DNA from: Ancylobacter novellus DSM 506
GTDB lineage: Bacteria > Pseudomonadota > Alphaproteobacteria > Rhizobiales > Xanthobacteraceae
Assembly (NCBI RefSeq): GCF_000092925.1
Contig: NC_014217.1
Span: forward strand, 1,054,001 to 1,118,000
DNA: 64,000 nt
Direction: 5' to 3'
The position numbers and the translations under genes are program-made. Under the pieces are notes generated by a model. That model did not search any database and was not told the DNA's origin. It saw only the letters and a list, made by a program, of their open reading frames with translations. This document shows positions 19,247 through 37,105 of the stretch, piece after piece (the stretch's first letter is position 1; the number at the start of each line of letters is the position of its first letter).

Positions 19247-19333
19247 TGCGCGTTTTACGAGCGCTTTGAAGTATTATTCTCTGGTATATTGTATATCAAT
19301 TCGCAGTCGCAGCAAAATCATAATAAGACATTT

Positions 19334-19353
19334 TTCTCATAAGAGTTCTTATT
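19334..19353 (+). promoter_or_regulatory. Degenerate TTCTTATG-type repeat upstream of xoxF
   Basis: TTCTCATA and TTCTTATT start 12 bp apart. They resemble the exact TTCTTATG pair upstream of pqqA and the near-exact pair upstream of the lut-like operon, where the period is 11 bp. The match is weaker here, so shared regulation is tentative. Confidence 0.3.
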
Positions 19354-19597
19354 GCGCGGCCCCGGGATTCGGATTAGCCTCGCTTTCGTCTTCGGCTTCA
19401 ACGGCTTTCGGGGGGTAACCCTCGATCCCGGTTCGTAGGCCAGCTTGGGGCGGCGCGCCCCCGTGAGATCCGGCTGCTTTCTCCCCCAGCCGGTCGTGAC
19501 ACGCTGTCGAAGACAAAACGGCCAGAACGGCAAACAAGCCGCGGCGGATCGCCCGTGACGGTCGATCCCGGAGGATCGTTCAGGAGGAGAATAAGCA

Positions 19598-21403
19598 ATG
19601 CGCAAGTTAATTGCGGCAGCAGTGATGAGTGCTGCAGCGGTCTATGCTTGGCCGGCGTCGGCCAATGATGGGCTGACCAATATCATCAAGGACCCCAAGC
19701 AGTGGGGTATCCAGACGGGTGACTACGCCAATACACGCTATTCCAAGCTCGATCAGATCAACGCCGGGAACGTCGGCAAGCTCCAGGTAGCCTGGACCTT
19801 CTCGACCGGCGTGCTGCGTGGCCATGAGGGCGGTCCGCTCATCATCGGCGACGTGATGTACGTGCATACGCCGTTCCCGAACATCGTCTATGCGCTCGAC
19901 CTGAACAATGATGGTCGTATTCTTTGGAAATACGAGCCGAAGCAGGATCCGAACGTCATCCCGGTGATGTGCTGCGACACGGTCAATCGTGGCCTTGCCT
20001 ATTCCGACGGCACGATCTTCCTGCATCAGGCCGACACCACCCTCGTCGCGCTCGACGCCAAGACCGGCCAGAAGAAGTGGTCGGTGGTCAACGGCGACCC
20101 GAAGAAGGGTGAGACCAACACCGCCACCGTCCTGCCGGTGAAGGACAAGGTCATCGTCGGCATCTCCGGCGGCGAGTTCGGCGTGCGCTGCCACGTCACC
20201 GCCTATGACACCAAGACCGGCAAGCAGGTCTGGCGCGGCTATTCGATGGGTCCCGACAGCGAGATGCTCGTCGACCCGCAGAAGACCACCGCGCTCGGCA
20301 AGCCGATCGGCGCCGATTCCTCGCTGAAGAGCTGGGAAGGCGACCAGTGGAAGATCGGCGGCGGCTGCACCTGGGGCTGGTACTCCTACGACCCCGAGAC
20401 CAACCTGGTCTATTACGGCTCGGGCAACCCCTCGACCTGGAACCCGAAGCAGCGTCCCGGCGACAACAAGTGGTCGATGACCGTCTGGGCGCGCGACGCC
20501 GACACGGGCATGGCCAAGTGGGTCTACCAGATGACCCCCCACGACGAGTGGGACTATGACGGCGTGAACGAAATGATCCTCACGGATCAGCAGTTCAACG
20601 GCGCGCCGCGCAAGCTGCTCACCCATTTCGACCGCAACGGCTTCGGCTATACGCTGGACCGCGTGTCGGGCGAGCTTCTCGTCGCCGAGAAGTACGACCC
20701 GGCGGTGAACTGGGCCACCAAGGTCGACATGGACAAGAACAGCCCGACCTATGGTCGTCCGCTGGTCGTGGCCAAGTACTCGACCGAGCAGAACGGCGAG
20801 GACGTGAACTCCAAGGGCATCTGCCCGGCGGCCCTTGGTACCAAGGACCAGCAGCCGGCGGCCTTCTCGCCCAAGACCAACCTGTTCTACGTGCCGACCA
20901 ACCACGTCTGCATGGACTATGAGCCGTTCCGCGTGAGCTACACTGCGGGCCAGCCCTATGTCGGTGCGACCCTGTCGATGTTCCCCGCGCCGAACAGCCA
21001 TGGCGGCATGGGCAACTTCATCGCCTGGGACAACACCAAGGGCAAGATCGTGTGGTCGCTCAAGGAGCCCTTCTCGGTGTGGTCGGGCGCCCTCGCCACC
21101 GCTGGTGACGTGGTGTTCTATGGCACGCTGGAAGGCTACCTGAAGGCGGTCGACTCCAAGACGGGCAAGGAACTCTACAAGTTCAAGACCCCGTCGGGCA
21201 TCATCGGCAACGTCACCACCTATGAGCACGGTGGCAAGCAGTACATCGCCATCCTGTCGGGTGTCGGTGGCTGGGCGGGCATCGGCCTTGCGGCCGGCCT
21301 GACTGATCCGAATGCCGGCTTGGGTGCGGTGGGCGGCTATGCTGCGCTGTCCAACTACACCAACCTCGGCGGTCAGCTCACGGTGTTCGCGCTGCCGAAC
21401 TGA
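19598..21403 (+). CDS. xoxF: Lanthanide-dependent methanol dehydrogenase XoxF
   Basis: The 601-residue pre-protein has a signal peptide (cleaved near ASAND) and an eight-bladed quinoprotein propeller with tryptophan-docking repeats. The vicinal disulfide that stacks on PQQ is C125-C126. Expected metal ligands are E193 (SGGEFG), N277 (GSGNPS) and catalytic D319, and the extra aspartate D321 two residues on (DEWDYDG) marks lanthanide enzymes against calcium MxaF. It oxidises methanol to formaldehyde or formate in the periplasm and passes electrons to the cytochrome encoded by the next gene. No MxaI small-subunit gene is visible. Overall similarity looks like the XoxF5 clade, judged by eye. Confidence 0.96.
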
Positions 21404-21488: not shown

Positions 21489-21618
21489 AACGTCTCGGAA
21501 CGGTGCACCTTATGAAACTCTTAGAACAATTCCGAACCATGAGGCGCGGGCACGACCCCGAAGCGCCTGTCACGGCCGCCCCCGGCCTCTGTCGCGGCGC
21601 CTCTGAGGAGACCTGCTC

Positions 21619-24976: not shown

Positions 24977-25815
24977 TCATCGGGCATTCTCCGGCCCGCC
25001 GCGGCGGGCCATGACGCCGGCGGAAGGATCATACGCCAGTATCGAGGCGCCAAGGAACACAACGGCGCAACCGGCGACGACGAGGGCGGAGAGCGGCTCG
25101 AACTGGCCGTAGAGGGCGAAGCGGATCAGCTCCACCGCATAGGTGAAGGGGTTCAGCGTACAGATCCACCAGAGGACGAGGCTGCTCTCCTGCACCCGCC
25201 AGAGCGGGTAGAGCGCGGAAGAGGCGAAGAACATTGGGAAGATGACGAAGTTCATCACGCTGGCGAAATTCTCCATCTGGCGGAAGACGGAGGACATCAG
25301 CAGCCCCATGGCGCCCAGCATGAGCCCGGTGAGCAGCAGCGCCGGCAGCACGGCGATGTAGCCGATGGGCGGCAGCTCGACCTCCCAGAACCAGGCGACG
25401 GCCAGGAACGCATAGACCTGCAGCAGCGAGACGCAGATGCCGGCGAGAAGCTTGGAGACCAGCAGGAACCAGCGCGGATAGGGGCTGACCAGCAATATGC
25501 GCATCGCCCCGACTTCGCGGTCATAGACCATGGAGAGCGAGGATTGCAGCCCGTTGAACAACTGGATCATCGCCACGAGGCCCGGCGTCACATAGACCTC
25601 GTAGAGCACGTAGGTCTCGTAAGGCGGAATGATCGAGACGCCGAGCACCGAGCGGAAGCCGGCGGCGAAGATGAACAGCCAGACCAGCGGGCGCACCAGC
25701 GCCGAAAGGAAGCGGCCGCGTTGGTTGAGGAAGCGCAGCGCCTCGCGCCAGCATATGCCGGCGAGGACGACGAGATAGCCGCCGAGCGGCAGGCGGAAGC
25801 GCGGGGAGGGAGAAT

Positions 25816-25819
<4 letters not shown>
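24977..25819 (-). CDS. ABC-2 type permease, PQQ-alcohol-dehydrogenase/lut-associated (LutF-like)
   Basis: The 280-residue protein has six predicted helices and ABC-2 signatures: GLQSSLSMVYDREVGAMRILLVSPYPRWFLLVSKLLAG and a late NPFTYAVELIRFALYG. The start overlaps the ATPase stop by 4 bp (ATGA). ABC-2 permeases are usually exporters, yet this subfamily occurs with a periplasmic binding protein beside PQQ dehydrogenases. In Methylorubrum extorquens the homologous lut system is needed for lanthanide uptake. Lanthanide transport is therefore the favoured role by homology of the whole cassette. Confidence 0.85.
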
Positions 25820-26601
<782 letters not shown>

Positions 26602-26628
26602 GGCGTCTCCCGGAAGCGGCCAGACACA

Positions 26629-26661
26629 GAGAAGAAAATGTCCCCGGCCATGGCCGGGGAC
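26629..26661 (-). terminator. Intra-operon hairpin (attenuator-like) before the ABC ATPase gene
   Basis: A perfect inverted repeat with GTCCCCGGCCA as one arm (26640-26661) is followed on the minus strand by ATTTTCTTCT. This looks like a factor-independent terminator inside the operon. It would let the exported proteins be made in excess over the ATPase and permease. Confidence 0.5.
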
Positions 26662-26689
26662 AGTCTACGAGGAGAACAAGTCCGCGTCG

Positions 26690-27115
26690 TCACTTCACGA
26701 TGAATTCGCCCTTCATGCCCCGCTCCTCCATGCCCTTGCAGTACCAGGCATAGTTGCCGGGCTTGACAGGCACGAAGAACATCTCGGCCTCGCCCTCTTC
26801 CTCGAACTCAAGCTCGGTGAGGTGGATGGCCTTGATCTCCATGCCGCCGGCCTCGACCTTGCGCAGGAAGATGTTCTGGAACAGCCCCGGCGACTGCCAG
26901 GCGCATTCCTTCTTGCCGGTCGACTTGACGGTCAGCGAGTAGGCCTTGCCGGTCTCCAGCTCATACTTCTGCTGGGAGACGCCGAAGCCGGAATCACCGA
27001 GGCCGACGGTGAGTTCTTCGAGCTCCACCGGCTTCAGGGTCATGTCGCCCTTGGCATAGGCGAGGCCGGAGAGGGCGAGGGTAGTCGCGAGCACGGCGGC
27101 AATATGCGTCTTCAT
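26690..27115 (-). CDS. Exported cupredoxin-like protein with atypical metal ligands
   Basis: The 141-residue protein has a signal peptide (cleaved near AYAKG). The strand pattern and the end GNYAWYC126KGMEERGMKGEFIVK recall small blue-copper proteins, where C-x(n)-H-x(n)-M supplies copper ligands. Here the C-terminal loop has C126, M129 and M134 but no histidine, and the usual early His position reads KKEC71AWQS. The only internal His outside the leader is H98. It may bind another metal, or none. It lies in the lut-like operon between the propeller and ATPase genes, so a metal-handling role is plausible but unproven. Confidence 0.75.
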   Translation of the reverse strand: MKTHIAAVLATTLALSGLAYAKGDMTLKPVELEELTVGLGDSGFGVSQQKYELETGKAYSLTVKSTGKKECAWQSPGLFQNIFLRKVEAGGMEIKAIHLTELEFEEEGEAEMFFVPVKPGNYAWYCKGMEERGMKGEFIVK

Positions 27116-27159
27116 GGCAAAATCCTCCGAATGATGTTTCTTGGCTGATCGTTCAGGGC

Positions 27160-28143
27160 TTACGGCACCACCACCACGCCCCAGGGCGAGCGGCCGACGG
27201 TGACGGATTTGGTGACCTTCTCGTTCGCGACGTCGATGACCGAGATGTCGTTCGAGTTGCCGTTGGTGGTGACGAGGAACTTCTCGTCCGGCGTGAAGCC
27301 GAGCTGCCAGACGCGCTGGCCGACCAGCAGGTACTTCTCGACTTCAAGCGTCTTGGCGTCGATCACCGCCACGCGGTTGGCCGGGCCGAGGGCGACGAAC
27401 GCCTTGGAGCCGTCCTTGGAGATGCGCACGCCGACCGGCTGGATGGCGTCATCGGTCACGCCGGGGATCTTGAAGGAGATCTTCTTGACGATCTTCCACG
27501 TCGCGGGGTCGATCACCGCCACCGTGCCGCCGACCTCGGCCGAGACCCAGAGCTGCTTGCCGTCCTTGGAGAATTCGGCGATGCGCGGGCGGGAATCGAC
27601 GAGGATGTTCTCGATGATCTCGTTGGTCTTCGTGTCCACCACATGCGCCATGTTGGTGGTCTCGGAGGTGTTGACCATGTACTTGCCGTCCGGGCTGATG
27701 CCCATGCCCTCCGGCTCCACGCCCACCGGGATCTCGACGACGAGGTCGTTGTTCTCGACGTTCACCACCGTGACCATGTTGTCGTCTTCGTTGGCGATGT
27801 AGAGCGGGTTGCCCGAGGGGTGCAGCACGAACAGCTCCGGATCGGGACCGGAGCGCAGCGTCTTCACCAGCTTCAGCGTCGCCGCGTCATAGACCTCGAC
27901 GCGGTTGTCGTCCGAGGCGCACAGATAGACCAGCTTGCCGTCCGGGCTGGCGATGATGCCGCGCGGGCGCCGGCCGGTCTTGATGGTCTCGATGACCTTC
28001 AGCGTGTCCATGTCGACCACGCTCATCGTGTGGTCGCGCTCATTGGAGACGAAGGCACGGGGACCGGCCGCGGCCGGCAGGGCATCGACCAGCAGCAGCC
28101 CGGCGATGGCGGCGGCGCTGGACAGCAGGATCTGGCGTCTCAT
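27160..28143 (-). CDS. YVTN-type beta-propeller protein, PQQ-catabolism associated
   Basis: The 327-residue protein has a signal peptide (RRQILLSSAAAIAGLLLVDALPAAAG). It then carries about seven repeats of roughly 42 residues with TIKTGRRPRGIIASPDGKLVY-like units. The repeats resemble the beta-propeller family found with PQQ-linked ABC systems. It is periplasmic and probably a binding or scaffold component. It sits between the binding protein and the cupredoxin-like gene, spaced 27-44 bp, in one operon. Confidence 0.87.
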   Translation of the reverse strand: MRRQILLSSAAAIAGLLLVDALPAAAGPRAFVSNERDHTMSVVDMDTLKVIETIKTGRRPRGIIASPDGKLVYLCASDDNRVEVYDAATLKLVKTLRSGPDPELFVLHPSGNPLYIANEDDNMVTVVNVENNDLVVEIPVGVEPEGMGISPDGKYMVNTSETTNMAHVVDTKTNEIIENILVDSRPRIAEFSKDGKQLWVSAEVGGTVAVIDPATWKIVKKISFKIPGVTDDAIQPVGVRISKDGSKAFVALGPANRVAVIDAKTLEVEKYLLVGQRVWQLGFTPDEKFLVTTNGNSNDISVIDVANEKVTKSVTVGRSPWGVVVVP

Positions 28144-28170
28144 TCGTTTCCTCCTGGCAATGGCTTGATT

Positions 28171-29418
28171 TTATTGGAACTTGCAGGCCGTCTCGGGCCG
28201 GTCGAAGCCGAGCGTGTCGAGCGGCGTGACCTGGTGCAGGAAGCCGGCCTGCGGCGAGAGCGTCACCGTGTTGGTGGCGTGGGTGAGCAGGATCGGCTGG
28301 CGAAGCTGGTGGTCCCAGTCGCGGAACGAGGCGGCGACGCCCTTGAACACCGGCAGGTCGTAATCCGGCGCGAGCATCTGCGCCTTCACCTTGGTGGGAT
28401 CGTTGTTGCGGGTCTTCAGGCTGGCCGAACCGATGGAGAAGACGCCTTCCCACATCTGGAAGTCGAGCGGCAGCATCATCCGCTTCGACTGCTTGAAGAA
28501 GCGGCTCTGAAGCTGCGAGGCGCCCCAGTTCTCCATGGTGGGGTGCCAGGAGAGCGGCATCAGCCCCTGCGTGCCGGCGGTGGGGCGGGCGAGCCAAGTG
28601 TTGTAGGGCAGGATGTCGCCGAACTCGCCCAGCTCGTCGGCGACGACGAGGATGTCGTACTCGCCGACCTGCGTGCCGCGCGGCACCTCCGACTGTGCGG
28701 TGGCGCGGGCATCCGGGCCATAATCCCACTGCTTCTCGGCGACGATCTTGGCGCCGAACTTCTTCGCTGAGCGGCGCACCGCCTCGGCATAGAGCTTGTC
28801 GGCGTCGGTGCGGCCGACCATGAGGAACCAGTTGCGCCAGCGCTTGGTGACGAGGAACTGCGCCAGCGCGTCGGTCAGCATCGCCCGGTTGGGAGCGATG
28901 TGGAACACGTTGGCGCGGCAGTCCTGCTGGCGCAGCCGGTCATCGGTGGCGCCGACATTGATGATGAGGACGTTCTTGTCCTTCAGCGCGTCGGCGATGC
29001 GGATGAGCTGGTCGGCGGGAACATCGAGCAGGATGAAGCTGTTGCCGGCCTCGACAAGCTTCTGCGCCGCCGGCAGCGGATCGCCGTCGGTCGGCACGAT
29101 CTCGGTGGAGAGCTTGTAGTCGAGCTTGAGGAAGCGGCCGCTGGTGAGGTTGTCGCGGATACCGAGCTCGGCGCCGGCGATGCCGAGGTCGTTCGGCGGC
29201 ATCTGCAGCGGCGCGATCCATGGCGGCGGCTCGGGGATCTGCCGCACCAGGCCGATGCGAAATGTCTGCTCGGGCGGTATGGCCGCCGCTGGCTTGGCTG
29301 CGAGCGGCGGCGAGGAAGGGGCAGGGGAGGTGGCCTCCTGCGCGCCCGCCGCAGTCATCGCGCACAATGCTGCAATCAGCGCCGCGCCAGTGACGCTCGC
29401 CATCCTTTTCATCGGCAT
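28171..29418 (-). CDS. ABC transporter binding protein, PQQ-alcohol-dehydrogenase system (LutA-like)
   Basis: The protein has about 415 residues with a signal peptide (cleaved near AAGAQE) and a P/A-rich linker. The mature part begins FRIGLVRQIPEPPPWIAPLQMPPNDLGIAGAELGIRDN and continues in a type-1 periplasmic binding fold (DILVVADELGEFGDILPYNTW, RPTAGTQGL). This family is named for its link with PQQ-dependent alcohol dehydrogenases, and the Methylorubrum homologue LutA is part of the lanthanide uptake system. Starts at 29418, 29412 or a TTG at 29433 are possible. It leads the minus-strand operon and is divergent from the next ABC operon. Confidence 0.86.
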   Translation of the reverse strand: MPMKRMASVTGAALIAALCAMTAAGAQEATSPAPSSPPLAAKPAAAIPPEQTFRIGLVRQIPEPPPWIAPLQMPPNDLGIAGAELGIRDNLTSGRFLKLDYKLSTEIVPTDGDPLPAAQKLVEAGNSFILLDVPADQLIRIADALKDKNVLIINVGATDDRLRQQDCRANVFHIAPNRAMLTDALAQFLVTKRWRNWFLMVGRTDADKLYAEAVRRSAKKFGAKIVAEKQWDYGPDARATAQSEVPRGTQVGEYDILVVADELGEFGDILPYNTWLARPTAGTQGLMPLSWHPTMENWGASQLQSRFFKQSKRMMLPLDFQMWEGVFSIGSASLKTRNNDPTKVKAQMLAPDYDLPVFKGVAASFRDWDHQLRQPILLTHATNTVTLSPQAGFLHQVTPLDTLGFDRPETACKFQ

Positions 29419-29531
29419 TTCATCCCACGGCAATGTGTTTGCTGGTTCTCGACAAGTGTCTTTGGAACTTTTCTCGGTCGCCGTGGCAAAACTCTACGCA
29501 ATCGAGCTCAAGCATTCAATAAAATAGCGTG

Positions 29532-29550
29532 CATAAGAAACTAATAAGAA
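29532..29550. promoter_or_regulatory. TTCTTATG direct repeat between lut-like operon and second ABC operon
   Basis: On the plus strand CATAAGAA and AATAAGAA start 11 bp apart. On the minus strand, toward the LutA-like gene, this reads TTCTTATTAGTTTCTTATG. The site is almost the same as TTCTTATGATCTTCTTATG upstream of pqqA. An 11-bp period of direct half-sites is typical for OmpR-family regulators. It lies about 115 bp upstream of the lut-like start and about 140 bp from the opposite start. Confidence 0.55.
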
Positions 29551-29688
29551 AATGTAACGCTGCCGTTATCCAAAGCATATAGCAAATATTAAAATCGGGA
29601 ACTTTTTCCCGGTCGCTTGCAGGAGCATATCTCCGCGTTATGATTGCCGGGCGGCAGGAACAAGTCCGGCCCAGGGAGGGAGAACTGG

Positions 29689-30213
29689 ATGAATGCTTTC
29701 AGCTACCTCGGTGCAACTGCCGCGCTCGTTCTCGGTCTCGCCGCCGCCGATGCCCAGGCCGCGACGCGCGTCGCCGTGTTCGACTTCGAGCTGTTCGACA
29801 CCAGCGGCGAGGCGGGCCCCAGCGGGCCGAAGCCGGAGGAGGCGAGGCGCCTCGCCCTCATCACTGACGATCTGCGCGAGCGGCTGAAGAAAGCCGGCTA
29901 TGAAGTGGTCGACCTGTCGCCGAAAAAGGCCGAGATTACCGAGGCTTCGCCCTTCCGCAACTGCAATAGCTGCGAGCTCGAGATCGCCCGCTCCCTCGGT
30001 GCGCAGATCGAGGTGATCGGGCTGGTGCAGAAAGTCTCGAATCTCATCCTCAACATCAACTTCCAGCTGCGGGATGTTGCGACGGGGGAGGTGCTGCGCG
30101 CGGGCAGCGCCGACATCCGCAACAACACGGACGAATCCTGGCTGCGCGGCGTCTCCTATCTCATCCGCAATCGTCTGCTCGATCCGCCGCTTACTGGGAA
30201 AGCCGCGCCATGA
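29689..30213 (+). CDS. Exported DUF2380/DUF3280-like protein
   Basis: From ATG 29689 (GGGAGGGAG upstream) the protein has 174 residues with a signal peptide (cleaved near AQAAT). It reads TRVAVFDFELFDTSGEAGP, then ARRLALITDDLRERLKKAGYEVVDL, and ends with a beta-strand-rich QLRDVATGEVLRAGSADIRNNTDESWLRG. CNSC near residue 100 is a possible disulfide or metal pair. Proteins of this type occur in methylotroph dehydrogenase loci; their function is unknown. The stop overlaps the start of an ABC binding-protein gene (ATGA), so the two are probably linked in function. Confidence 0.78.
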   Translation: MNAFSYLGATAALVLGLAAADAQAATRVAVFDFELFDTSGEAGPSGPKPEEARRLALITDDLRERLKKAGYEVVDLSPKKAEITEASPFRNCNSCELEIARSLGAQIEVIGLVQKVSNLILNINFQLRDVATGEVLRAGSADIRNNTDESWLRGVSYLIRNRLLDPPLTGKAAP

Positions 30214-31202
30214 TTCTCACCCGCCGCGCCTTGCTGGCATCGGCTGCCATCACGCTGGTTCCGCTGCTGCCTCTGCCGACCCATGCGCAGGATGCAGCGA
30301 TGAAGCTGCGGATCGGCTCGCTGAAATTCGGCACGCTGAACTGGCTGGTGGAGACCATCCGCACGGAAGGCTTCGACAAGCAGCAGGGCCTCACCCTCGA
30401 CGCCGTCGACTTCGCCAGCGGACAGGCGACGACCGTTGCCCTCCAGGCGGGCGACATCGACCTCATCGTCAGCGACTGGCTGTGGGCGCTACGCCGCACC
30501 CAGGATGGCGAGCGCATGCGCTTCGCGCCTTTCTCCAACACGCTCGGCGCGCTGATGGTGGCGACGGACGGGCCGGTGAAGAGCCTCGCCGACCTGAAGG
30601 GCAAAAAGATCGGCGTCGCCGGCGGCGCGCTCGACAAAAGCTGGCTGCTTCTGCGCGCCTACGGCAAGGCGCAGCTCGGCGTTGATCTCACTGAAGTCGC
30701 CGAGCCGGTGTTCGGCGCCGCGCCGCTGGTCAGCGAGCAACTGGTGCTCGGCCGCGTCGACGCGGTGCTGACCTTCTGGCCCTATGCCGCGCGGCTCGAC
30801 GCCAAGGGTTTCCGGCGCTTCCTCGACATGAAGGAGGTCGTCAAGGGGCTCGGCATCGATCCTGCCCCGCCGCTGGTCGGCTTCGTCTGGCGCAACGCCG
30901 TCATGACCGACAAGGGCGCGGCGATCTCCGCCTTCCTGCGCGCGGCGGCGTCCGCCAACCGGGTGCTGGCGACGAATGATGCCGCCTGGGAGCGCATTCG
31001 CCCGCTTATGCAGGCGGCGGACGACGCCGAATTCGCCCGGCTGCGCGACTATTACCGTGCCGGCATTCCGGGCAGCTTCGGCGAGGCCGAGCGGCAGTCC
31101 TGCGCCAAGCTCTACGAGGTGCTGGCGCAGACCGGTGGGCCGGAGCTGGTCGGGCCGAATCCGGGCTTCGAGCGCAGCCTGTTCGGGCCGGTGGGCGAGT
31201 GA
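30210..31202 (+). CDS. ABC transporter binding protein, NMT1/SsuA (nitrate/taurate) type
   Basis: The 330-residue protein begins with a Tat-like leader (TRRALLASAAITLVPLLPLPTHAQ). The mature part KLRIGSLKFGTLNWLVETI, QATTVALQAGDIDLIVSDWLWA and SLADLKGKKIGVAGG is typical of the NMT1/SsuA-type binding proteins for taurate, sulfonates, nitrate or thiamine precursors. The ligand cannot be read from the sequence. Placement beside xox and lut-like genes suggests a substrate relevant to methylotrophy. Confidence 0.88.
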   Translation: MILTRRALLASAAITLVPLLPLPTHAQDAAMKLRIGSLKFGTLNWLVETIRTEGFDKQQGLTLDAVDFASGQATTVALQAGDIDLIVSDWLWALRRTQDGERMRFAPFSNTLGALMVATDGPVKSLADLKGKKIGVAGGALDKSWLLLRAYGKAQLGVDLTEVAEPVFGAAPLVSEQLVLGRVDAVLTFWPYAARLDAKGFRRFLDMKEVVKGLGIDPAPPLVGFVWRNAVMTDKGAAISAFLRAAASANRVLATNDAAWERIRPLMQAADDAEFARLRDYYRAGIPGSFGEAERQSCAKLYEVLAQTGGPELVGPNPGFERSLFGPVGE

Positions 31203-31209
31203 GGGGAAG

Positions 31210-31959
31210 GTGTCCACTGCGACGCGCCTGCTGCTGACCGCCGCCTCGCTCGCCGGGCTCGTGCTCGTGTGGCAGATCGCCGCTCTGATCGCCGCTTCGC
31301 CGCTGCTGCCCGGCCCCGCCGCCGTCGTCGCGGCGATGGCGCGAGCGGCGGAGAGCGGCGCCTTGCAGGCCAACATCGCCATCACGCTCGCTCGCGTCGC
31401 CGCCAGCTTCCTCATCGCCATGGCGATCGGCTCGGCCATTGGCATCGCGCTCGGCCGCTCCGTTCAGCTCAACGAGCTGTTCGGCCCGTGGGTGGTGGTG
31501 CTGCTCAACCTGCCGGCGCTGGTGGTGATCATCCTCTGCTATGTCTGGTTCGGGCTGACCGAGGCGGCGGCGATCACCGCGGTGGCGATCAACAAGATCC
31601 CCAACGTCGCCGTCACCATGCGCGAGGGCGCCGCGGCGCTGTCGCGGGACCTCGACGAGATGGCGCGCGTCTACCGCCTGCCGCGGCTCAAGGCGCTGCG
31701 CGAGGTCACCCTGCCGCAGCTCGTGCCGTTCTTCGCCGCCAGCGCCCGCTCGGGGCTCGCGCTCACCTGGAAGATCGTGCTCGTGGTGGAACTGCTCGGC
31801 CGCTCCAACGGCGTCGGCTTTGAATTGCAGACGGCGTTCCAGCTCTTCGACGTCGCCACCATCCTCGCCTATGCACTGGCCTTCACCGCGGTGGTGCAAC
31901 TCATCGAGCTCGGCCTTTTGCAACCTTGGGAGCGGCGGGCCAACCGATGGCGGCGATGA
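31210..31959 (+). CDS. ABC transporter permease, SsuC/TauC type
   Basis: Starting at GTG 31210 (GAGGGGAAG upstream) the protein has 249 residues. It has about six helices and the EAA-type loop LDEMARVYRLPRLKALREVTLPQLVPFF. The longer frame upstream is a shadow of the binding-protein gene. The stop overlaps the ATPase start region. It is the channel of the second ABC importer. Confidence 0.87.
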   Translation: MSTATRLLLTAASLAGLVLVWQIAALIAASPLLPGPAAVVAAMARAAESGALQANIAITLARVAASFLIAMAIGSAIGIALGRSVQLNELFGPWVVVLLNLPALVVIILCYVWFGLTEAAAITAVAINKIPNVAVTMREGAAALSRDLDEMARVYRLPRLKALREVTLPQLVPFFAASARSGLALTWKIVLVVELLGRSNGVGFELQTAFQLFDVATILAYALAFTAVVQLIELGLLQPWERRANRWRR

Positions 31960-32672
31960 GCGCGATCCATATCGACATCGCCGAGAAGCGCTATCCGGCG
32001 GTCGCCGGCGCGCCCGCGCGGGACGTCTTCCGCGATTTCCGGCTGGAGGTGGCAGCGAACGAGTTCCTTGTGCTGCTCGGGGCCTCGGGGCTCGGCAAGA
32101 CGACGCTGCTCAACATCATCGCCGGGCTCGACACCGCCTATTCCGGCAAGGTGAGCTTCGGTGCGGGCACGCCGTGCATCGCCTATGCCTTTCAGAGCCC
32201 GCGGCTCCTGCCATGGCGCACCGTGCTGGGCAATGTTGCCTTGCCGTTGCCGTCCGGTGAGGAGGCGAGGGGCCGGGCCATGGCGATGCTGGGGGAGGTC
32301 GGCCTCGCCGATCTCGCCAGTGCCTATCCCGAGCGGCTCTCGCTCGGCCAGCAGCGTCGGGTCGCGCTGGCGCGGGCCTTCGTCATCGAACCGGACGTGC
32401 TGTTGATGGACGAGCCCTTCGTCTCGCTCGACGAGGCCGGCGCCGCGCGGTTGCGCGAATTGCTGCGCCGCCTGCTAGCGAAGCGGCCGGCGACGGTGCT
32501 GTTCGTCACCCATGACAGCCGCGAGGCGGTGGAACTGGCGAGCCGCGTCGTGGTGCTGGAAGGCGAGCCCGCGCGCATCGTTCGTGACGCGCCGGTGGGC
32601 CTGTCGCGCGAGGAACGCGCCGCGCCGGCGCGGATCGACGAGCTGCGCCGGGCGATCGGCATCGGCGGGTGA
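31947..32672 (+). CDS. ABC transporter ATP-binding protein, SsuB/TauB type
   Basis: The protein has about 241 residues with Walker A GASGLGKTTLLNII, Q-loop FQSPRLLPWRTV, Walker B VLLMDEPFVSLDEA and H-loop VTHDSREAVEL. The signature is LSLGQQRRVALA rather than LSGGQ, a change also seen in some NitT/TauT-type ATPases. The start may be ATG 31947 or ATG 31956; the latter gives a 4-bp ATGA overlap with the permease stop. It completes the second ABC importer. Confidence 0.88.
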   Translation: MAAMSAIHIDIAEKRYPAVAGAPARDVFRDFRLEVAANEFLVLLGASGLGKTTLLNIIAGLDTAYSGKVSFGAGTPCIAYAFQSPRLLPWRTVLGNVALPLPSGEEARGRAMAMLGEVGLADLASAYPERLSLGQQRRVALARAFVIEPDVLLMDEPFVSLDEAGAARLRELLRRLLAKRPATVLFVTHDSREAVELASRVVVLEGEPARIVRDAPVGLSREERAAPARIDELRRAIGIGG

Positions 32673-32744
32673 GGACAGCTCCCTCTCCCTGACGAGGAGA
32701 GGGAAGTAGAGACCAGCACTCAGGACCACAGCGGTCCAGTGCCG

Positions 32745-32838
32745 CGTCATGGCCGGGCTTGGTCCGGCCATCCACGACTTCGGTTCAGCCTGGCGCCGGG
32801 TAAGGCGTGAATCCCCGGGCCAAGCCCGGGGATGACGG
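32745..32838. repeat. Palindromic intergenic repeat, family A
   Basis: A run CGTCATGGCCGGGCTTGGTC, its inverted partner GGCCATCCACG and a second hairpin around CCCCGGGCCAAGCCCGGGG form a compound repeat. A related copy lies at 41477-41560 with the same order (GTCATG-CCCGGGCT-CGTCCCGGGCATTCACG-CTTCGG). It resembles REP/RIME-like elements of Rhizobiales. Confidence 0.55.
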
Positions 32839-32876
32839 ACGCGAAATCCTCCTCGGAGCCCAATTCCACACCACCC

Positions 32877-32980
32877 CCTCATCCTGAGGTGCTCGCGCCG
32901 CGAGCCTCGAAGGATGGTCGTTCAGGCGCACCCGGACGAGCCTCCTTCGAGGCCGCCGGCGGCGGCACCTCAGGATGAGG
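32877..32980. repeat. 104-bp element with 16-bp terminal inverted repeats (MITE-like), family B
   Basis: CCTCATCCTGAGGTGC (32877-32892) and GCACCTCAGGATGAGG (32965-32980) are perfect inverted copies. Inner motifs GAGCCTCGAAGGATG and CCTTCGAGGC are also inverted. Related halves occur at 48884-48999. It carries no gene and no transposase is nearby, so it would be moved, if at all, by an enzyme elsewhere. Confidence 0.65.
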
Positions 32981-33006
32981 TTCATGGGAAGTCGGCGAAG
33001 GCCGCC

Positions 33007-33037
33007 AAAGAAAAAGGCCCGGAGCGTGCTCCGGGCC
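33007..33037 (-). terminator. Terminator downstream of fae
   Basis: GGCCCGGAGC and GCTCCGGGCC form a perfect 10-bp stem at 33016-33037, followed on the minus strand by TTTTTCTTT. It lies about 175 bp after the fae stop and points in the fae direction. Confidence 0.75.
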
Positions 33038-33212
33038 TCGAGAAGTGGGATTGTGGGCAATGAGAAGGCGGCTCACCCGCCGTCTCAGTGGCGCAAGCGA
33101 CGCCGGCGAACCGCCGTCACTTGTTCAGGAAAATCGCCGCCAACCGCTGGAGCAGGCCCTTCGGATACTGGGCCGCGGGCGGTGGTGTTGTCTGCCCAGG
33201 GTTGCTTCCGAT

Positions 33213-33719
33213 CTAAGCGGCGAAGGGATGCTTGGCCGAAGCGGCCTGAGAGAGGACCTCGCGGACCTTCGGCTCGCCGTCGACGGCGCGCTTGAGGGCC
33301 TGCTTGGTGGCCTCGTAGTTGAACTGCTGGATCTTGGCGTCGTCCGCCGCTTCCCAGTGGATGAACACGCCGACCGAGATGAACAGGTCGTCGGCTTCTT
33401 CCTCGGGGATCACGCCTTCGGCCACGCTGTCGACGACCGCCTTGGCGACCGCGTACTGCGCAGGGCCGAACATCTGGACGGCCTGGCGGGCGTCCTTGAT
33501 CGTCACCTTGTTGAACAGGATGGTGTTCGGCTTGGCGAGCAGGTTCGGCGTGACGACGGCGAGCAGCGAGGTGAAGCCGTCCTTGTTGTTCGTCAGGGCG
33601 TTGACGAAGGCGCTTTCCGCCGCGCTGCCGCGCGGGCCGATGATGAGGTCGATATGAGCGACCTCGTTGCCGTCACCCACCAGCGATTCGCCGATGAGCA
33701 CCTTGTTGATCTTGGCCAT
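33213..33719 (-). CDS. fae: Formaldehyde-activating enzyme
   Basis: The 168-residue protein matches Fae along its length: [62 protein letters not shown], and [26 protein letters not shown]22 is the expected catalytic histidine. Fae condenses formaldehyde with tetrahydromethanopterin in the cytoplasm, the first step of formaldehyde oxidation in many methylotrophs. GGGAGGA precedes the ATG. No other H4MPT pathway gene is in the window, so the rest must lie elsewhere. Confidence 0.95.
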
Positions 33720-34205
33720 CTAATCCTCCCACACGGGGTTGCATGACAAGGGACGGGAACTGTCCCCCGATGTCCCGGCTATCTTTGTTGCAGCGTTTGG
33801 AACACCAAACCGGTTGGCCCGATAGCGCGACCAGACACGTTACGGGGGAGAGACTAGGCCCGCTTCGCCTTTATCCGCAAGGGATTCTTCGCCCGTGTGA
33901 CGCTCGGGCACGGGCTTGACAAGACGTTTGTCTAAGCTTGAGGGAATCGATGGTCGCTATTGCGGATTATGGCGGCATGGTCAAAACTACGGCAGACGGC
34001 TCTGTCCGGTGATCGGGCAGGCGCCGGGCCGGCCCGAAGCGGCGTCGGCGCCGGCTTCCCGGATGTGTCGGCGTGCCCATTGGCCCGCTTCTTGCTCCGG
34101 TACGTTGCAAGCTTGAGGCGATCCGGCCGCCGTGTGCGGCGAGATTAGGCCCGGGGATTGGAGGGACACTCGGACGGGCTTGGATCCACGCCTCGAGGAC
34201 TTTTT
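33720..34205. other. Non-coding gap upstream of fae and of a small protein gene
   Basis: This 486-bp gap contains the divergent promoters for fae and for the small protein at 34206. A TTGACA at 33916-33921 has no convincing -10 at the usual distance. The half of the gap nearest 34206 is GC-rich with inverted repeats (around 34019-34060). A 66-codon frame at 33916-34116 has no supporting start site or composition. Confidence 0.4.
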
Positions 34206-34415
34206 ATGGAGCTCATTCTGTCGATCTGCCTTTTCGCCAGCCCAGGCACCTGCCGCGAGGAGATTGTCTCGGTCGGGCTGGAGCAGACACCCGCGCCGGT
34301 GCAGTGCATGATGGGCGCACCGCCGGTCATCGCCGAATGGAGCGAGACGCATCCCAAGTGGAAAGTGACCAAATGGCGCTGCGGGCGGGCGGGGTCGGCC
34401 GGGCGCGACATCTGA
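34206..34415 (+). CDS. Small cysteine-containing protein of unknown function
   Basis: The 69-residue protein starts at ATG 34206 with GAGGAC 6 bp upstream. It begins with a short hydrophobic stretch (MELILSICLF) and contains four cysteines (residues 8, 14, 34 and 59), then SETHPKWKVTKWRC. Length and composition are like small conserved proteins of Hyphomicrobiales. Export is possible but the leader is short. No function is assigned. It lies 114 bp upstream of the sensor kinase gene. Confidence 0.6.
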   Translation: MELILSICLFASPGTCREEIVSVGLEQTPAPVQCMMGAPPVIAEWSETHPKWKVTKWRCGRAGSAGRDI

Positions 34416-34529
34416 GCTTTCCTTCACCTTAAATCAGGAATCCTGCTGCGCCGCAGCGTGCGCCTGCACGCCGTCCGTGGAATCATCGCGTTGCCATCGA
34501 TGTGAGGTGGCGCAATCCCGGTCGGATGC

Positions 34530-36158
34530 ATGACGCGTGGCTTGTTTTCGTCGCTCAGGGCGCGCATGGCGCTGCTGCTCGCCGTCGCCGTTCTGGTGAC
34601 GGCCGCATCGACGCTCGCGCTCGTCTTCGGCCTTGGGGCGGCCAATGCACAGCTCGACCGGCTGGTGTCGGCGCAGAGCCGGCTGGAGCTGCTCTCCGCC
34701 ATCTCCGGGCGCATCGGCGACTACGCGCTGGTGGCGCTGCAGGCCGGGCACGAAGACCCCGCCGCCGGGCAGGCGCCGATGCATGCCGGCCGCTTCGCCG
34801 CCGCCGACCGGGCGCGCGCCGCCTTCGCGCGGCTGGAGGACGCGCTCGCCACCGAGGTCGGACGCCTCTCCGGCGAGGAGCAGCGTACGCTGATGGCGGC
34901 GCGCAGCCGCACCCTCGCCCGGATGCGGGCGCAGTTCGACGTGCTCGACCGCCAGATCGACACCGCGCTCGCGGCGGAGGAGCCGGCGACGGCGGTGCGG
35001 GTCGCTCTCGACGTCTTCGCCGCCGGCTTCAGCGGACCGCTCGGCCAGGCGATGGAGGAGGAGCGGATCGCGGCCCATGACGCGCAGGCCGCGGTGCGCG
35101 ACCTGCGCGAGCGCACCATTCGCTGGGGGCTGATCGGCGTCGCGCTCGCCTGCCTGATCGCCGTCGTGCTGTATCATCGGCTCGGCCGCTCGCTGGTCAA
35201 TCGCGTCGCCGACGTCGCCGCCGCGGCGGCGGCCATCGCGCGGGGCCGCTCGGACACCCGCATCGCCGTCACCGGCCATGATGAGCTGAGCCTTGCCATG
35301 GCGCGCTTCAACCGCATGGCGGCGCATCTCGCCCGCCGCGAGGGGCGACTTGTGGCGGCGCAGAAGCAGCTGCAGGAGACGGTCGACGCGCGTACCGCCG
35401 AATTGCGCGCGGCCAATACGCGGCTGGAGAATGTCGACCTCGCCCGCCGGCGCTTCTTCACCGATGTCAGCCACGAATTGCGCACGCCGCTCACCGTCAT
35501 CCTCGGCGAGGCGGAGATCACGCTGCGTCCGGCGCAGCCGCGCGAGGAGGACCTGCGGGCGGCGCTGCTCACCATCCAGTCGCGCGCCCGCCGGCTGCAC
35601 CGCCGCGTCGAGGACCTTTTGCGTATCGCGCGTTCCGAGAGCGGGCAGATCGAGCTCGATCGCTCGTTCTTCCTCGTCTGCGACCTGATCACCGACTTGC
35701 GCGAGAGCATGCAGCCGGTGGCGCGCGCCGCCGGGCTGACGCTGGAGACCGCCTGCATGCCGGACGACCTCGTCATCGATGCCGACCGCGACTGGCTGCG
35801 CCAGACCTTCGACGGGCTGATCGCCAATGCGGTGCGCCATTCGCCGCCCGGCGAGACGGTGCGCGTCGAGGCCGCACGCGAGGCGGGCGATGTGGTGATA
35901 AGAGTGAGCGACCACGGCACGGGAATCCCGTCGGACGACCTGCCGCACGTCTTCGAGCGCTTCTGGCGCGGCGCCGCCCGCGAGGGTACCGGCTTCGGCA
36001 TCGGCCTCGCCCTGGCGAAGTGGATCGTCGACCGCCATGGCGGGCGCATCGAGATCGACAGCCGTGTCGCCGATGGCGAAGGGCGGCGCGGGGGGACCTG
36101 CGTCACCGTCCGCCTGCCCACGCCGGTGCCCGACATCACATTGGAGGCCGCCCAATGA
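34530..36158 (+). CDS. Sensor histidine kinase
   Basis: The 542-residue protein has a membrane segment at residues 13-36 and another at about 200-217, enclosing a helical periplasmic sensor domain of about 160 residues. A HAMP domain follows (218-270), then a coiled-coil, the phosphoacceptor H315 (DVSHELRTPLTVI) and ATP-binding boxes (NAVRHSPPGE, DHGTGIP, GTGFGIGLALAKWIVDRHGG). The signal is unknown. It is coupled to the response regulator by a 4-bp overlap and is followed by pqqA. Control of PQQ or methanol-oxidation genes is therefore plausible. Confidence 0.92.
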   Translation: MTRGLFSSLRARMALLLAVAVLVTAASTLALVFGLGAANAQLDRLVSAQSRLELLSAISGRIGDYALVALQAGHEDPAAGQAPMHAGRFAAADRARAAFARLEDALATEVGRLSGEEQRTLMAARSRTLARMRAQFDVLDRQIDTALAAEEPATAVRVALDVFAAGFSGPLGQAMEEERIAAHDAQAAVRDLRERTIRWGLIGVALACLIAVVLYHRLGRSLVNRVADVAAAAAAIARGRSDTRIAVTGHDELSLAMARFNRMAAHLARREGRLVAAQKQLQETVDARTAELRAANTRLENVDLARRRFFTDVSHELRTPLTVILGEAEITLRPAQPREEDLRAALLTIQSRARRLHRRVEDLLRIARSESGQIELDRSFFLVCDLITDLRESMQPVARAAGLTLETACMPDDLVIDADRDWLRQTFDGLIANAVRHSPPGETVRVEAAREAGDVVIRVSDHGTGIPSDDLPHVFERFWRGAAREGTGFGIGLALAKWIVDRHGGRIEIDSRVADGEGRRGGTCVTVRLPTPVPDITLEAAQ

Positions 36159-36844
36159 CCATTCTCATCGTCGAGGACGATCCGGACATCGGTTCCCTGC
36201 TGCGGCGCGGCTTCTCCTCGGAGAGCTACCAGGTCGAGCTCGTCGGCGACGGCGAGGAGGCGCTGCGCGCGGCCAATGGCAAGGCGTGGGAGGCGATCAT
36301 CCTCGACGTCATGCTGCCCGGCCGCTCCGGCATCGAGGTGTGCAAGGCGCTGCGCGCCGGCGGACAGACCGCGCCGATCATCATGCTCTCGGCCCGTTCC
36401 AGCGTGAACGAGCGCACCGAGGGGCTGATGGCCGGGGCGGACGACTACATCATCAAGCCCTTCGCCTTCGAGGAATTGCTGGCGCGGCTGAAGGTGCAGG
36501 CACTGCGCCGCTCCAATGCCGACAGTGAGCCGCGCGTGCTGACCGCCGGCCCGCTCAGCCTCGACCTCGACACGCGGCAGGCCCAGCTTGCCGGTACCCG
36601 CGTGCGCCTCACCGAGCGCGAGGTGGAGCTGCTGGCGCTCTTGATGCGCCATCCGAGCGAGCCGCTGGCGCGTGCCGACATCTTTGCCGCGCTATGGGCG
36701 GGCCACGGCGGCGCCTCGCTCAATGTGGTGGATGTCTATGTCGGCTATCTCCGCCACAAGCTGGCGGAGGCGCTGCCCGATGGCGGCCACATGATCGTGA
36801 CCGTGCGCGGGCGCGGCTTCATGTTCGATCCGGAACCGGGCTGA
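36155..36844 (+). CDS. OmpR-family response regulator
   Basis: The 229-residue protein has a receiver domain with D51 (IILDVMLPG) and the conserved lysine in DDYIIKPFAF. The OmpR-type winged helix (TEREVELLALLMRHPSEPLARADIFAALW, then VVDVYVGYLRHKL and TVRGRGFMF) covers about residues 130-229. The start overlaps the kinase stop. OmpR regulators commonly bind direct repeats with a 10-11 bp period. Such a repeat (TTCTTATG twice, 11 bp apart) lies 130 bp downstream in front of pqqA. Confidence 0.92.
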   Translation: MTILIVEDDPDIGSLLRRGFSSESYQVELVGDGEEALRAANGKAWEAIILDVMLPGRSGIEVCKALRAGGQTAPIIMLSARSSVNERTEGLMAGADDYIIKPFAFEELLARLKVQALRRSNADSEPRVLTAGPLSLDLDTRQAQLAGTRVRLTEREVELLALLMRHPSEPLARADIFAALWAGHGGASLNVVDVYVGYLRHKLAEALPDGGHMIVTVRGRGFMFDPEPG

Positions 36845-36969
36845 TATACCGGCATCGACGCAAGGGTGCTGGTATAATGTGCGCCTAGAGGATTATCGGC
36901 ATAGTCTTTCTTGACGAAGTGGGAATTCATCACCACACTACTAAGGCGGTGTAATAACCGCAAATCAAC

Positions 36970-37010
36970 TTGGCTTCTTATGATCTTCTTATGAAGTAAA
37001 GAGAAGCCAA
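36970..37010 (+). promoter_or_regulatory. Inverted repeat enclosing the TTCTTATG pair upstream of pqqA
   Basis: TTGGCTTCT (36970-36978) and AGAAGCCAA (37002-37010) are perfect inverted arms flanking 23 bp. A smaller CTTC-TTAT-GAAG inverted repeat lies inside. If transcribed, it would form a hairpin just before the pqqA ribosome site. If not, it may be part of the operator. Confidence 0.4.
36975..36993 (+). promoter_or_regulatory. TTCTTATG direct repeat upstream of pqqA
   Basis: TTCTTATG at 36975-36982 is repeated exactly at 36986-36993, an 11-bp period. The near-identical pair at 29532-29550 faces the lut-like operon. It lies about 35 bp before the pqqA start. Candidate binding site of the OmpR-type regulator encoded just upstream; inferred. 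Confidence 0.55.
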
Positions 37011-37027: not shown

Positions 37028-37105
37028 ATGGCCTGGACCACTCCGCACATTGTCGAAGTCTGCGTCGGCATGGAAGTCAACGCCTACTATCCGGCTGACT
37101 TCTGA
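37028..37105 (+). CDS. pqqA: PQQ precursor peptide PqqA
   Basis: This 25-residue peptide starts at ATG 37028 after GAGGAGGAAG. It has the diagnostic core E10-V-C-V-G-M-E16-V-N-A-Y20. E16 and Y20 are the residues that PqqE cross-links and that become the PQQ skeleton. It is too short for ordinary gene calling but lies exactly where expected, 38 bp before pqqB. The peptide is bound by PqqD and processed in the cytoplasm. Confidence 0.95.
   Translation: MAWTTPHIVEVCVGMEVNAYYPADF

Follow-up and report, generated by a model that had tools for sequence, protein, structure and literature searches.

The window analyzed here, a stretch of 64,000 nucleotides from Ancylobacter novellus DSM 506 (contig NC_014217.1, positions 1,054,001 to 1,118,000), carries the same short direct repeat before pqqA and before an operon for an ATP-binding cassette (ABC) system linked to pyrroloquinoline quinone (PQQ). 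Its conservation and genomic distribution make it very likely that the OmpR/PhoB-type response regulator whose gene adjoins pqqA, probably MxbM of an MxbDM two-component system, uses this repeat as its operator. The features concerned are the following.

36975..36993, plus strand: operator-like direct repeat TTCTTAT-GATC-TTCTTATG at pqqA, 11-bp period, 34 nt 5' of the start codon
29532..29550, minus strand: operator-like repeat before the PQQ-ABC operon, TTCTTAT-TAGT-TTCTTATG, in direct orientation with an 11-bp period
36155..36844, plus strand: OmpR/PhoB-type response regulator, MxbM-like, 229 aa, proposed reader of the repeat
34530..36158, plus strand: sensor histidine kinase, MxbD-like, with HAMP (218-267), HisKA and HATPase_c domains
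37028..37105, plus strand: pqqA, 25 aa, MAWTTPHIVEVCVGMEVNAYYPADF, by direct reading
24977..29418, minus strand: PQQ-ABC ("lut-like") operon, with a TIGR03863 binding protein, a TIGR03866 beta-propeller protein, a weakly plastocyanin-like protein, a TIGR03864 ATPase and a TIGR03861 permease

A direct repeat at PQQ and methanol genes

Both copies had been pointed out in an earlier reading of the DNA made without database searches (the sequence-only reading), as TTCTTATGATCTTCTTATG at 36975-36993 on the plus strand and TTCTTATTAGTTTCTTATG at 29532-29550 on the minus strand, and both do have an exact 11-bp period. They follow the pattern TCTTAT-N5-TCTTA(T), which matches nowhere else in the window with up to two mismatches and gave no match in 100 dinucleotide shuffles. 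In the whole genome (4,765,023 bases), the same tolerance yielded three matches, against two for the control, here and below the reversed pattern, and all three are located at PQQ or methanol genes. The third, TACTTATGAACTTCTTATG, stands about 430 bp upstream of mxaF. This gene lies outside the window and was invisible to the sequence-only reading; by its site, it is a likely target of the repeat's regulator.

The genes in the window are arranged on the plus strand in the order kinase, regulator, pqqA, pqqB. The 229-aa regulator comprises a PF00072 receiver and a PF00486 Trans_reg_C winged helix, both above cut-off, and scores 173.4 bits with the PhoB equivalog model, far below that model's cut-off of 296.2. 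The operon on the minus strand had been labeled lut-like and associated with lanthanide uptake; its family models indicate the PQQ-alcohol-dehydrogenase ABC system, so that we keep "lut-like" as a label and regard lanthanide transport as putative.

Conservation within Ancylobacter

With up to one mismatch, the core pattern was found in all 30 Ancylobacter genomes of the genus set, with 104 matches compared to 16 for the control. Ninety-nine of these are at PQQ or methanol loci: 30 at pqqA, 30 at the PQQ-ABC operon (29 assigned by coordinates and that of G022, outside the distance limit, by gene content), 22 at a distal and 11 at a proximal mxaF position, four after xoxF and two upstream of the kinase gene; the other five lie elsewhere. 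A longer pattern, at the same tolerance, has a match in 25/30 genus genomes and in 2/31 others, with four control matches across the 61. In alignments, the repeat appears as a conserved block within diverged intergenic sequence. A scan of the genome and its relatives, of the kind that the sequence-only reading had proposed as a check, found a motif that is rare, biased to PQQ and methanol loci and conserved in related genomes.

The repeat also goes with the regulator. The regulator gene is next to pqqA in 20 of 80 pqqB loci. Of these 20, 17 show the repeat at pqqA and 19 that at the PQQ-ABC operon (up to two mismatches), whereas neither repeat was found, at this tolerance, in any of the 60 loci without the regulator beside pqqA. 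The kinase-regulator pair lies directly 5' of pqqA in 20/20 genus loci, and the regulator is present in 30/30 genus genomes.

Two further elements were observed near these sites. An additional repeat of the same type stands before the kinase gene, on the opposite strand, in G020 and G022 and in the loci L017 (6023), L018 (6210), L020 (6253) and L023 (6167). Some members of the genus have the conserved palindrome GGGAAAAAGTTCCCG upstream of the PQQ-ABC repeat (29596-29610, minus strand); it is also found close to the mxaF promoter (L003, 1696-1710) and is possibly a second shared element.

The site in a second lineage and in Rhodobacterales

The search was extended to a family set of 382 genomes, 30 from the genus and 352 others. 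Exact matches to the core were found in 29 of the 30 and in 16 of the 352, with seven control matches in all 382. Twelve of the 16 non-genus matches stand just before pqqA, behind a kinase-regulator pair, in 11 genomes of the group g65 and one of g38 (pqqA was placed by eye on the sequence and via pqqB); the four others are elsewhere. The flanks of the g65 and g38 sites do not resemble those in the window. With up to one mismatch, the 15 genomes searched in these two groups gave 31 matches, in 12 genomes, against six for the control: 12 at pqqA, nine at the ABC binding-protein gene, six at mxaF, three near a beta-propeller-like gene and one at an unrelated place. By sequence, a second lineage thus has the same word at the same three genes. 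The PQQ-ABC site of G109 is a degenerate TCTTAGATTGCTCTTAG, with three mismatches. In three g65 loci (L256, L257 and L261), TCTTATGAACTTCTCA occurs again beside the beta-propeller-like gene, some 3.4 kb away from the site of the binding-protein gene, and possibly marks another target.

The regulators of g65 and g38 (n = 12) are 54-57% identical to that of the window overall and share 13 of the 14 recognition-helix residues, compared with 6-8 of 14 for seven paralogues from its own genome. A restriction of the regulator to a single genus was considered and rejected, as a threshold of E <= 1e-75 had hidden these 54-57% orthologues.

The helix motif NVVDVY(I/L)GY(L/V)R is also kept in nine Rhodobacterales plasmid stretches, three of which (Alloyangia, Mameliella and Salipiger sp.) have the order kinase-regulator-pqqABCDE. 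A pair of half-sites was found at PQQ genes in four of the nine, in two forms. Paracoccus alcaliphilus and Haematobacter carry the 11-bp direct repeat, with one mismatch, at the promoter of a PQQ dehydrogenase, and Haematobacter has it at the binding-protein promoter as well; Alloyangia (at pqqA) and Mameliella (at pqqA and the binding-protein gene) carry TTCTTA-N5-TAAGAA, with up to one mismatch. Shuffles of the plasmid stretches gave no direct (100 shuffles) and no inverted (60 shuffles) match, and the reversed direct pattern, with two mismatches, gave a single one, in Haematobacter. It seems from these sequences that the half-site TTCTTA(T) is constant and its arrangement variable. In the Paracoccus alcaliphilus and Haematobacter stretches (L270 and L271), a kinase-regulator pair of the same type adjoins the PQQ-ABC genes, in a region with a PQQ dehydrogenase.

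Promoter geometry

Two predicted promoters define where the repeat would act.

36911..36939, plus strand: predicted pqqA promoter TTGACG-N17-CACACT, start predicted near 36946
29491..29519, minus strand: predicted PQQ-ABC promoter TTGAAT-N17-TAGAGT, sigma-70-like, start predicted near 29484

TTGACG is invariant in the window and 20 aligned loci, and the start predicted from it places the pqqA repeat at about +29 to +47. About the same position follows for g65 from TTGCGG-N17-AATATT, an element identified by eye. The pqqA site is therefore probably part of the transcribed leader and not of the region that precedes the promoter. The leader predicted here is 82 nt long, and a length of 95 nt is given for AM1 (PMC9320726). 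A promoter downstream of the site, with its -35 box inside the repeat, was considered and set aside, as the alignment shows no consistent -10 box. At the PQQ-ABC operon, TTGAA is likewise unchanged between the window and the 20 loci aligned with it, the -10 box is less conserved, and the center of the repeat is located at about -57 from the predicted start, which would be a normal position for an activator.

At mxaF, the distal site is present in 22 of the 27 genus genomes that bear the gene, at about -260 by prediction, and the proximal one, reverse-oriented and near +25, in 11 of the 27. The mxaF site lies beside the start of a divergent operon encoding a small lipoprotein-like protein, a MoxY-domain kinase and a LuxR-type regulator.

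A predicted hairpin in the pqqA leader

The pqqA repeat is embedded in a potential RNA structure.

36970..37010, plus strand: predicted leader hairpin around the pqqA repeat, with outer stem TTGGCTTC/GAAGCCAA and inner stem CTTC-TTAT-GAAG on the second half-site

The outer-plus-inner fold was obtained for 19 of 20 sequences; L015 folds otherwise, and the weakest duplexes are those of L013, L014 and L021. Mean z-scores of the minimum free energy were -2.8 at pqqA (30 sequences), +0.35 at the PQQ-ABC site (20) and -1.3 at mxaF (9), but two pqqA leaders, L210 and L215, score above -1. When arms were swapped between species, pqqA leaders paired at -8.5 kcal/mol with their own arms versus -5.3 kcal/mol with foreign ones (permutation p 5e-5 over the 28 distinct leaders among 30, uncorrected for relatedness). 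The effect was small at the PQQ-ABC site (-3.6 versus -2.9, p 0.01, 19 sequences) and absent at mxaF (p 0.98, nine sequences). Covariation was assessed on 15 of the 30 sequences, mostly of equal loop length and including one weak case (L201). In the outer stem, 94.4% of the cells are paired and 20 are double-changed, compared to 6.8 +- 2.0 after shuffling, a value reached by none of 500 shuffles (relatedness uncorrected); two of five measures, pairs changed on both sides and further pair types, do not exceed the shuffles. The inner stem is invariant in the 15 aligned sequences. The 12 leaders of g65 and g38 fold as well, with different stems. Rfam gave no match in the window at the gathering score, and one low-scoring match each in the xoxF leader (E 0.48) and the pqqA leader (E 3.5).

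The xoxF region

The sequence-only reading had also assigned xoxF to the same system, through a weaker repeat with a 12-bp period.

19598..21403, plus strand: xoxF-type PQQ methanol/ethanol dehydrogenase (TIGR03075)
19320..19353, no strand assigned: conserved blocks upstream of xoxF, ATAATAAGA at 19320-19328 and TTCTTATT at 19346-19353, 17 nt apart
21508..21523, plus strand: candidate only, CCTTATGAAACTCTTA, a weak direct repeat with an 11-bp period in the interval separating xoxF from the cytochrome gene, present with up to one mismatch in 4/30 genus genomes

The 12-bp repeat is there, as TTCTCATAAGAGTTCTTAT from 19334, but of the 29 genus loci, out of 30, that could be anchored, only 14 have it exactly, and we rejected it as a site. 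The conserved sequence around it consists instead of the two blocks, TTCTTATT being found in 28/29 loci, ATAATAAGA in 25/29 and both in 24/29; the two are separated by 17 nt in 23 loci and by 16 nt in one. A view of these as inverted half-sites that are always kept, suggested by 13 of 30 loci (the others had been excluded on account of their strand), was weakened by the count over 29 loci, with both blocks in 24. By sequence they are inverted half-sites, and their fixed 17-nt gap fits the -35 and -10 boxes of a promoter equally well; xoxF is perhaps a target. In the window, xoxF is accompanied by cytochrome, MoxJ-like and CXXCW genes. Its leader (19360-19597, about 230 nt) is strongly conserved in 13 aligned genus loci, for example at CCAGCTTGGGGCG and CCAGCCGGTCGTGACACGCTG, and might form a structured, riboswitch-like RNA.

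Proposed mechanism and alternatives

From the sites, their positions and conservation, and their co-occurrence with the regulator, we infer the following course of binding, phosphorylation and regulation. The phosphorylated regulator would form a dimer that binds in head-to-tail fashion to a pair of TTCTTAT half-sites with an 11-bp period. At the PQQ-ABC operon it would act from about -57 of the conserved sigma-70-like promoter, in an activator position; at mxaF it would use the distal site and, in some genomes, the reverse-oriented site near the start. Bound at about +29 of pqqA, it would modulate, and probably limit, transcription, and the hairpin read from the leader sequence may impose a second constraint at the RNA level, such as protection of the mRNA or control of the ribosome site. 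The original proposal of a single OmpR-type regulator, encoded beside pqqA and reading a shared repeat, holds in that the motif is rare, locus-biased, conserved and tracks the recognition helix. The sequence-only reading was less apt for the xoxF repeat, which is poorly conserved, and for the pqqA site, which is probably located within the leader.

Several observations weigh against this reading. No match with up to one mismatch was found in three of the 14 g65 genomes searched (G219, G257 and G264), in which the presence of pqqA and of the regulator was not checked, and five of the nine Rhodobacterales stretches with the same helix motif (L265, L267, L269, L272 and L273) show neither form of the repeat in the stretch read. 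In 5/27 genomes with mxaF, the distal site has no match to the core pattern with up to one mismatch. The +29 position at pqqA is unusual for an OmpR-type activator. As for the hairpin, just 7 of 28 arm-swap comparisons had the own 3' arm as the best or joint-best partner.

The most direct competitor as reader of the repeat is MoxX (MxaX), the regulator of NarL/LuxR type whose gene is divergent from mxaF, the OmpR-type pair then doing something else. The mxaF site does lie in the mxaF/mxaZYX intergenic region, mxaYX-type genes are present, and MoxX orthologues with at least 79% identity are found in 28/30 genus genomes. NarL/LuxR-type proteins bind heptamers such as TACYYMT, which TACTTAT, the half-site at mxaF, fits. 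However, G022 and G029 possess neither mxaF nor a MoxX orthologue (best matches of 41% and 39%) and retain the pqqA and PQQ-ABC sites, so that the site is not restricted to genomes with MoxX. Furthermore, the site follows the OmpR-type recognition helix across genera and, partly, across orders, and direct repeats spaced by one helical turn are typical of PhoB-like proteins. We consider a MoxX operator very improbable and favor the OmpR-type reader, because the site co-occurs with the recognition helix and genomes without MoxX keep it. That the words are alike by accident, or as general promoter sequence, has a next to negligible probability: in this GC-rich genome the half-sites are rich in AT, the mxaF region has other AT-rich blocks in common, and the xoxF blocks may be mere -35 and -10 boxes, but shuffles gave no match, and the same genes carry the repeat in 30/30 genomes and, within flanks that cannot be aligned, in a second genus. 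For pqqA, the PQQ-ABC operon and mxaF, this explanation is already contradicted by the sequence comparisons.

Another possibility is that the pqqA element is mainly RNA, a hairpin that controls translation or stability of the message, its likeness to the other sites being in part a coincidence or the legacy of a DNA site. The covarying outer stem, the folding of the second-genera leaders and the predicted promoter upstream of the pqqA site speak for this. Yet the loops contain the same word as the PQQ-ABC promoter, where folding shows no hairpin (mean z +0.35) and the site precedes the predicted start; two of the five covariation measures are no better than shuffles; and a hairpin and a DNA site can coexist. 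A mainly RNA-based role appears unlikely. Also improbable, and speculative, is a single pqqA leader element of about 41 nt, seen here in three genera, that would be read twice, as an MxbM-type DNA operator and as an RNA hairpin with the half-site words in its loops, tuning both transcription and the fate of the message; the regulator may even contact the RNA. A covarying hairpin around the pqqA operator would be an unexpected extra layer, and is the least expected part of our results.

Comparison with known systems

MxbDM, as known from Methylobacterium, is required for mxaF expression and xoxF repression. In Methylobacterium, it controls the lanthanide switch between calcium- and lanthanide-dependent methanol dehydrogenases (PMC7356819). 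MxbDM of Methylobacterium/Methylorubrum and the pair described here both consist of a kinase and a regulator, the latter pair lying upstream of pqqA in 20/20 genus loci and in 12 g65 and g38 loci. In M. extorquens DM4, mxbM adjoins pqqA (PMC9320726), and the HAMP domain of M. aquaticum MxbD spans residues 215-262 (PMC7356819), compared to 218-267 here. Given this synteny and domain layout, with mxbM next to pqqA and the HAMP domains similarly placed, the kinase-regulator pair is probably MxbDM, a system known before. The kind of system is familiar; neither a published MxbM binding site nor the site described here was found in the searches made of open-licence literature. With the half-site TTCTTA(T) and a matching, conserved recognition helix, a direct regulon becomes testable, in which PQQ synthesis, the PQQ-linked ABC system, mxaF and perhaps xoxF are predicted to answer to one regulator, and the defined half-site should help to read this regulon from sequence in other Alphaproteobacteria.

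Starkeya novella, which we take to be a relative of Ancylobacter, is informative with regard to mxaF. Its MxaF is reported among the five most abundant proteins in all conditions but fructose (PMC3797975), and control of mxaF may for this reason be shallow in this group. The operon that starts at the third site, divergent from mxaF, resembles in arrangement the MxaXYZ (MoxXYZ) system of Paracoccus denitrificans (PMC5018670). Its regulator here is of the NarL/LuxR type, and the orthologue is missing from two genomes keeping the pqqA and PQQ-ABC sites.

Two known DNA elements can be set beside the repeat. In M. extorquens, Zhang reportedly described in 2005 a multiple A-tract shared upstream of mxaF, pqqA and other genes at the mox promoters; this too is a cis element common to mxaF and pqqA, but an A-tract and not this repeat. 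The repeat also resembles the pho box, to which a PhoB dimer binds head to tail: PhoB is likewise of the OmpR/PhoB type, and its site consists of 7-bp half-sites with 4-bp spacers that form an 11-bp direct repeat. By contrast, the half-site is TTCTTAT here and CTGTCAT in the pho box, and the targets are different.

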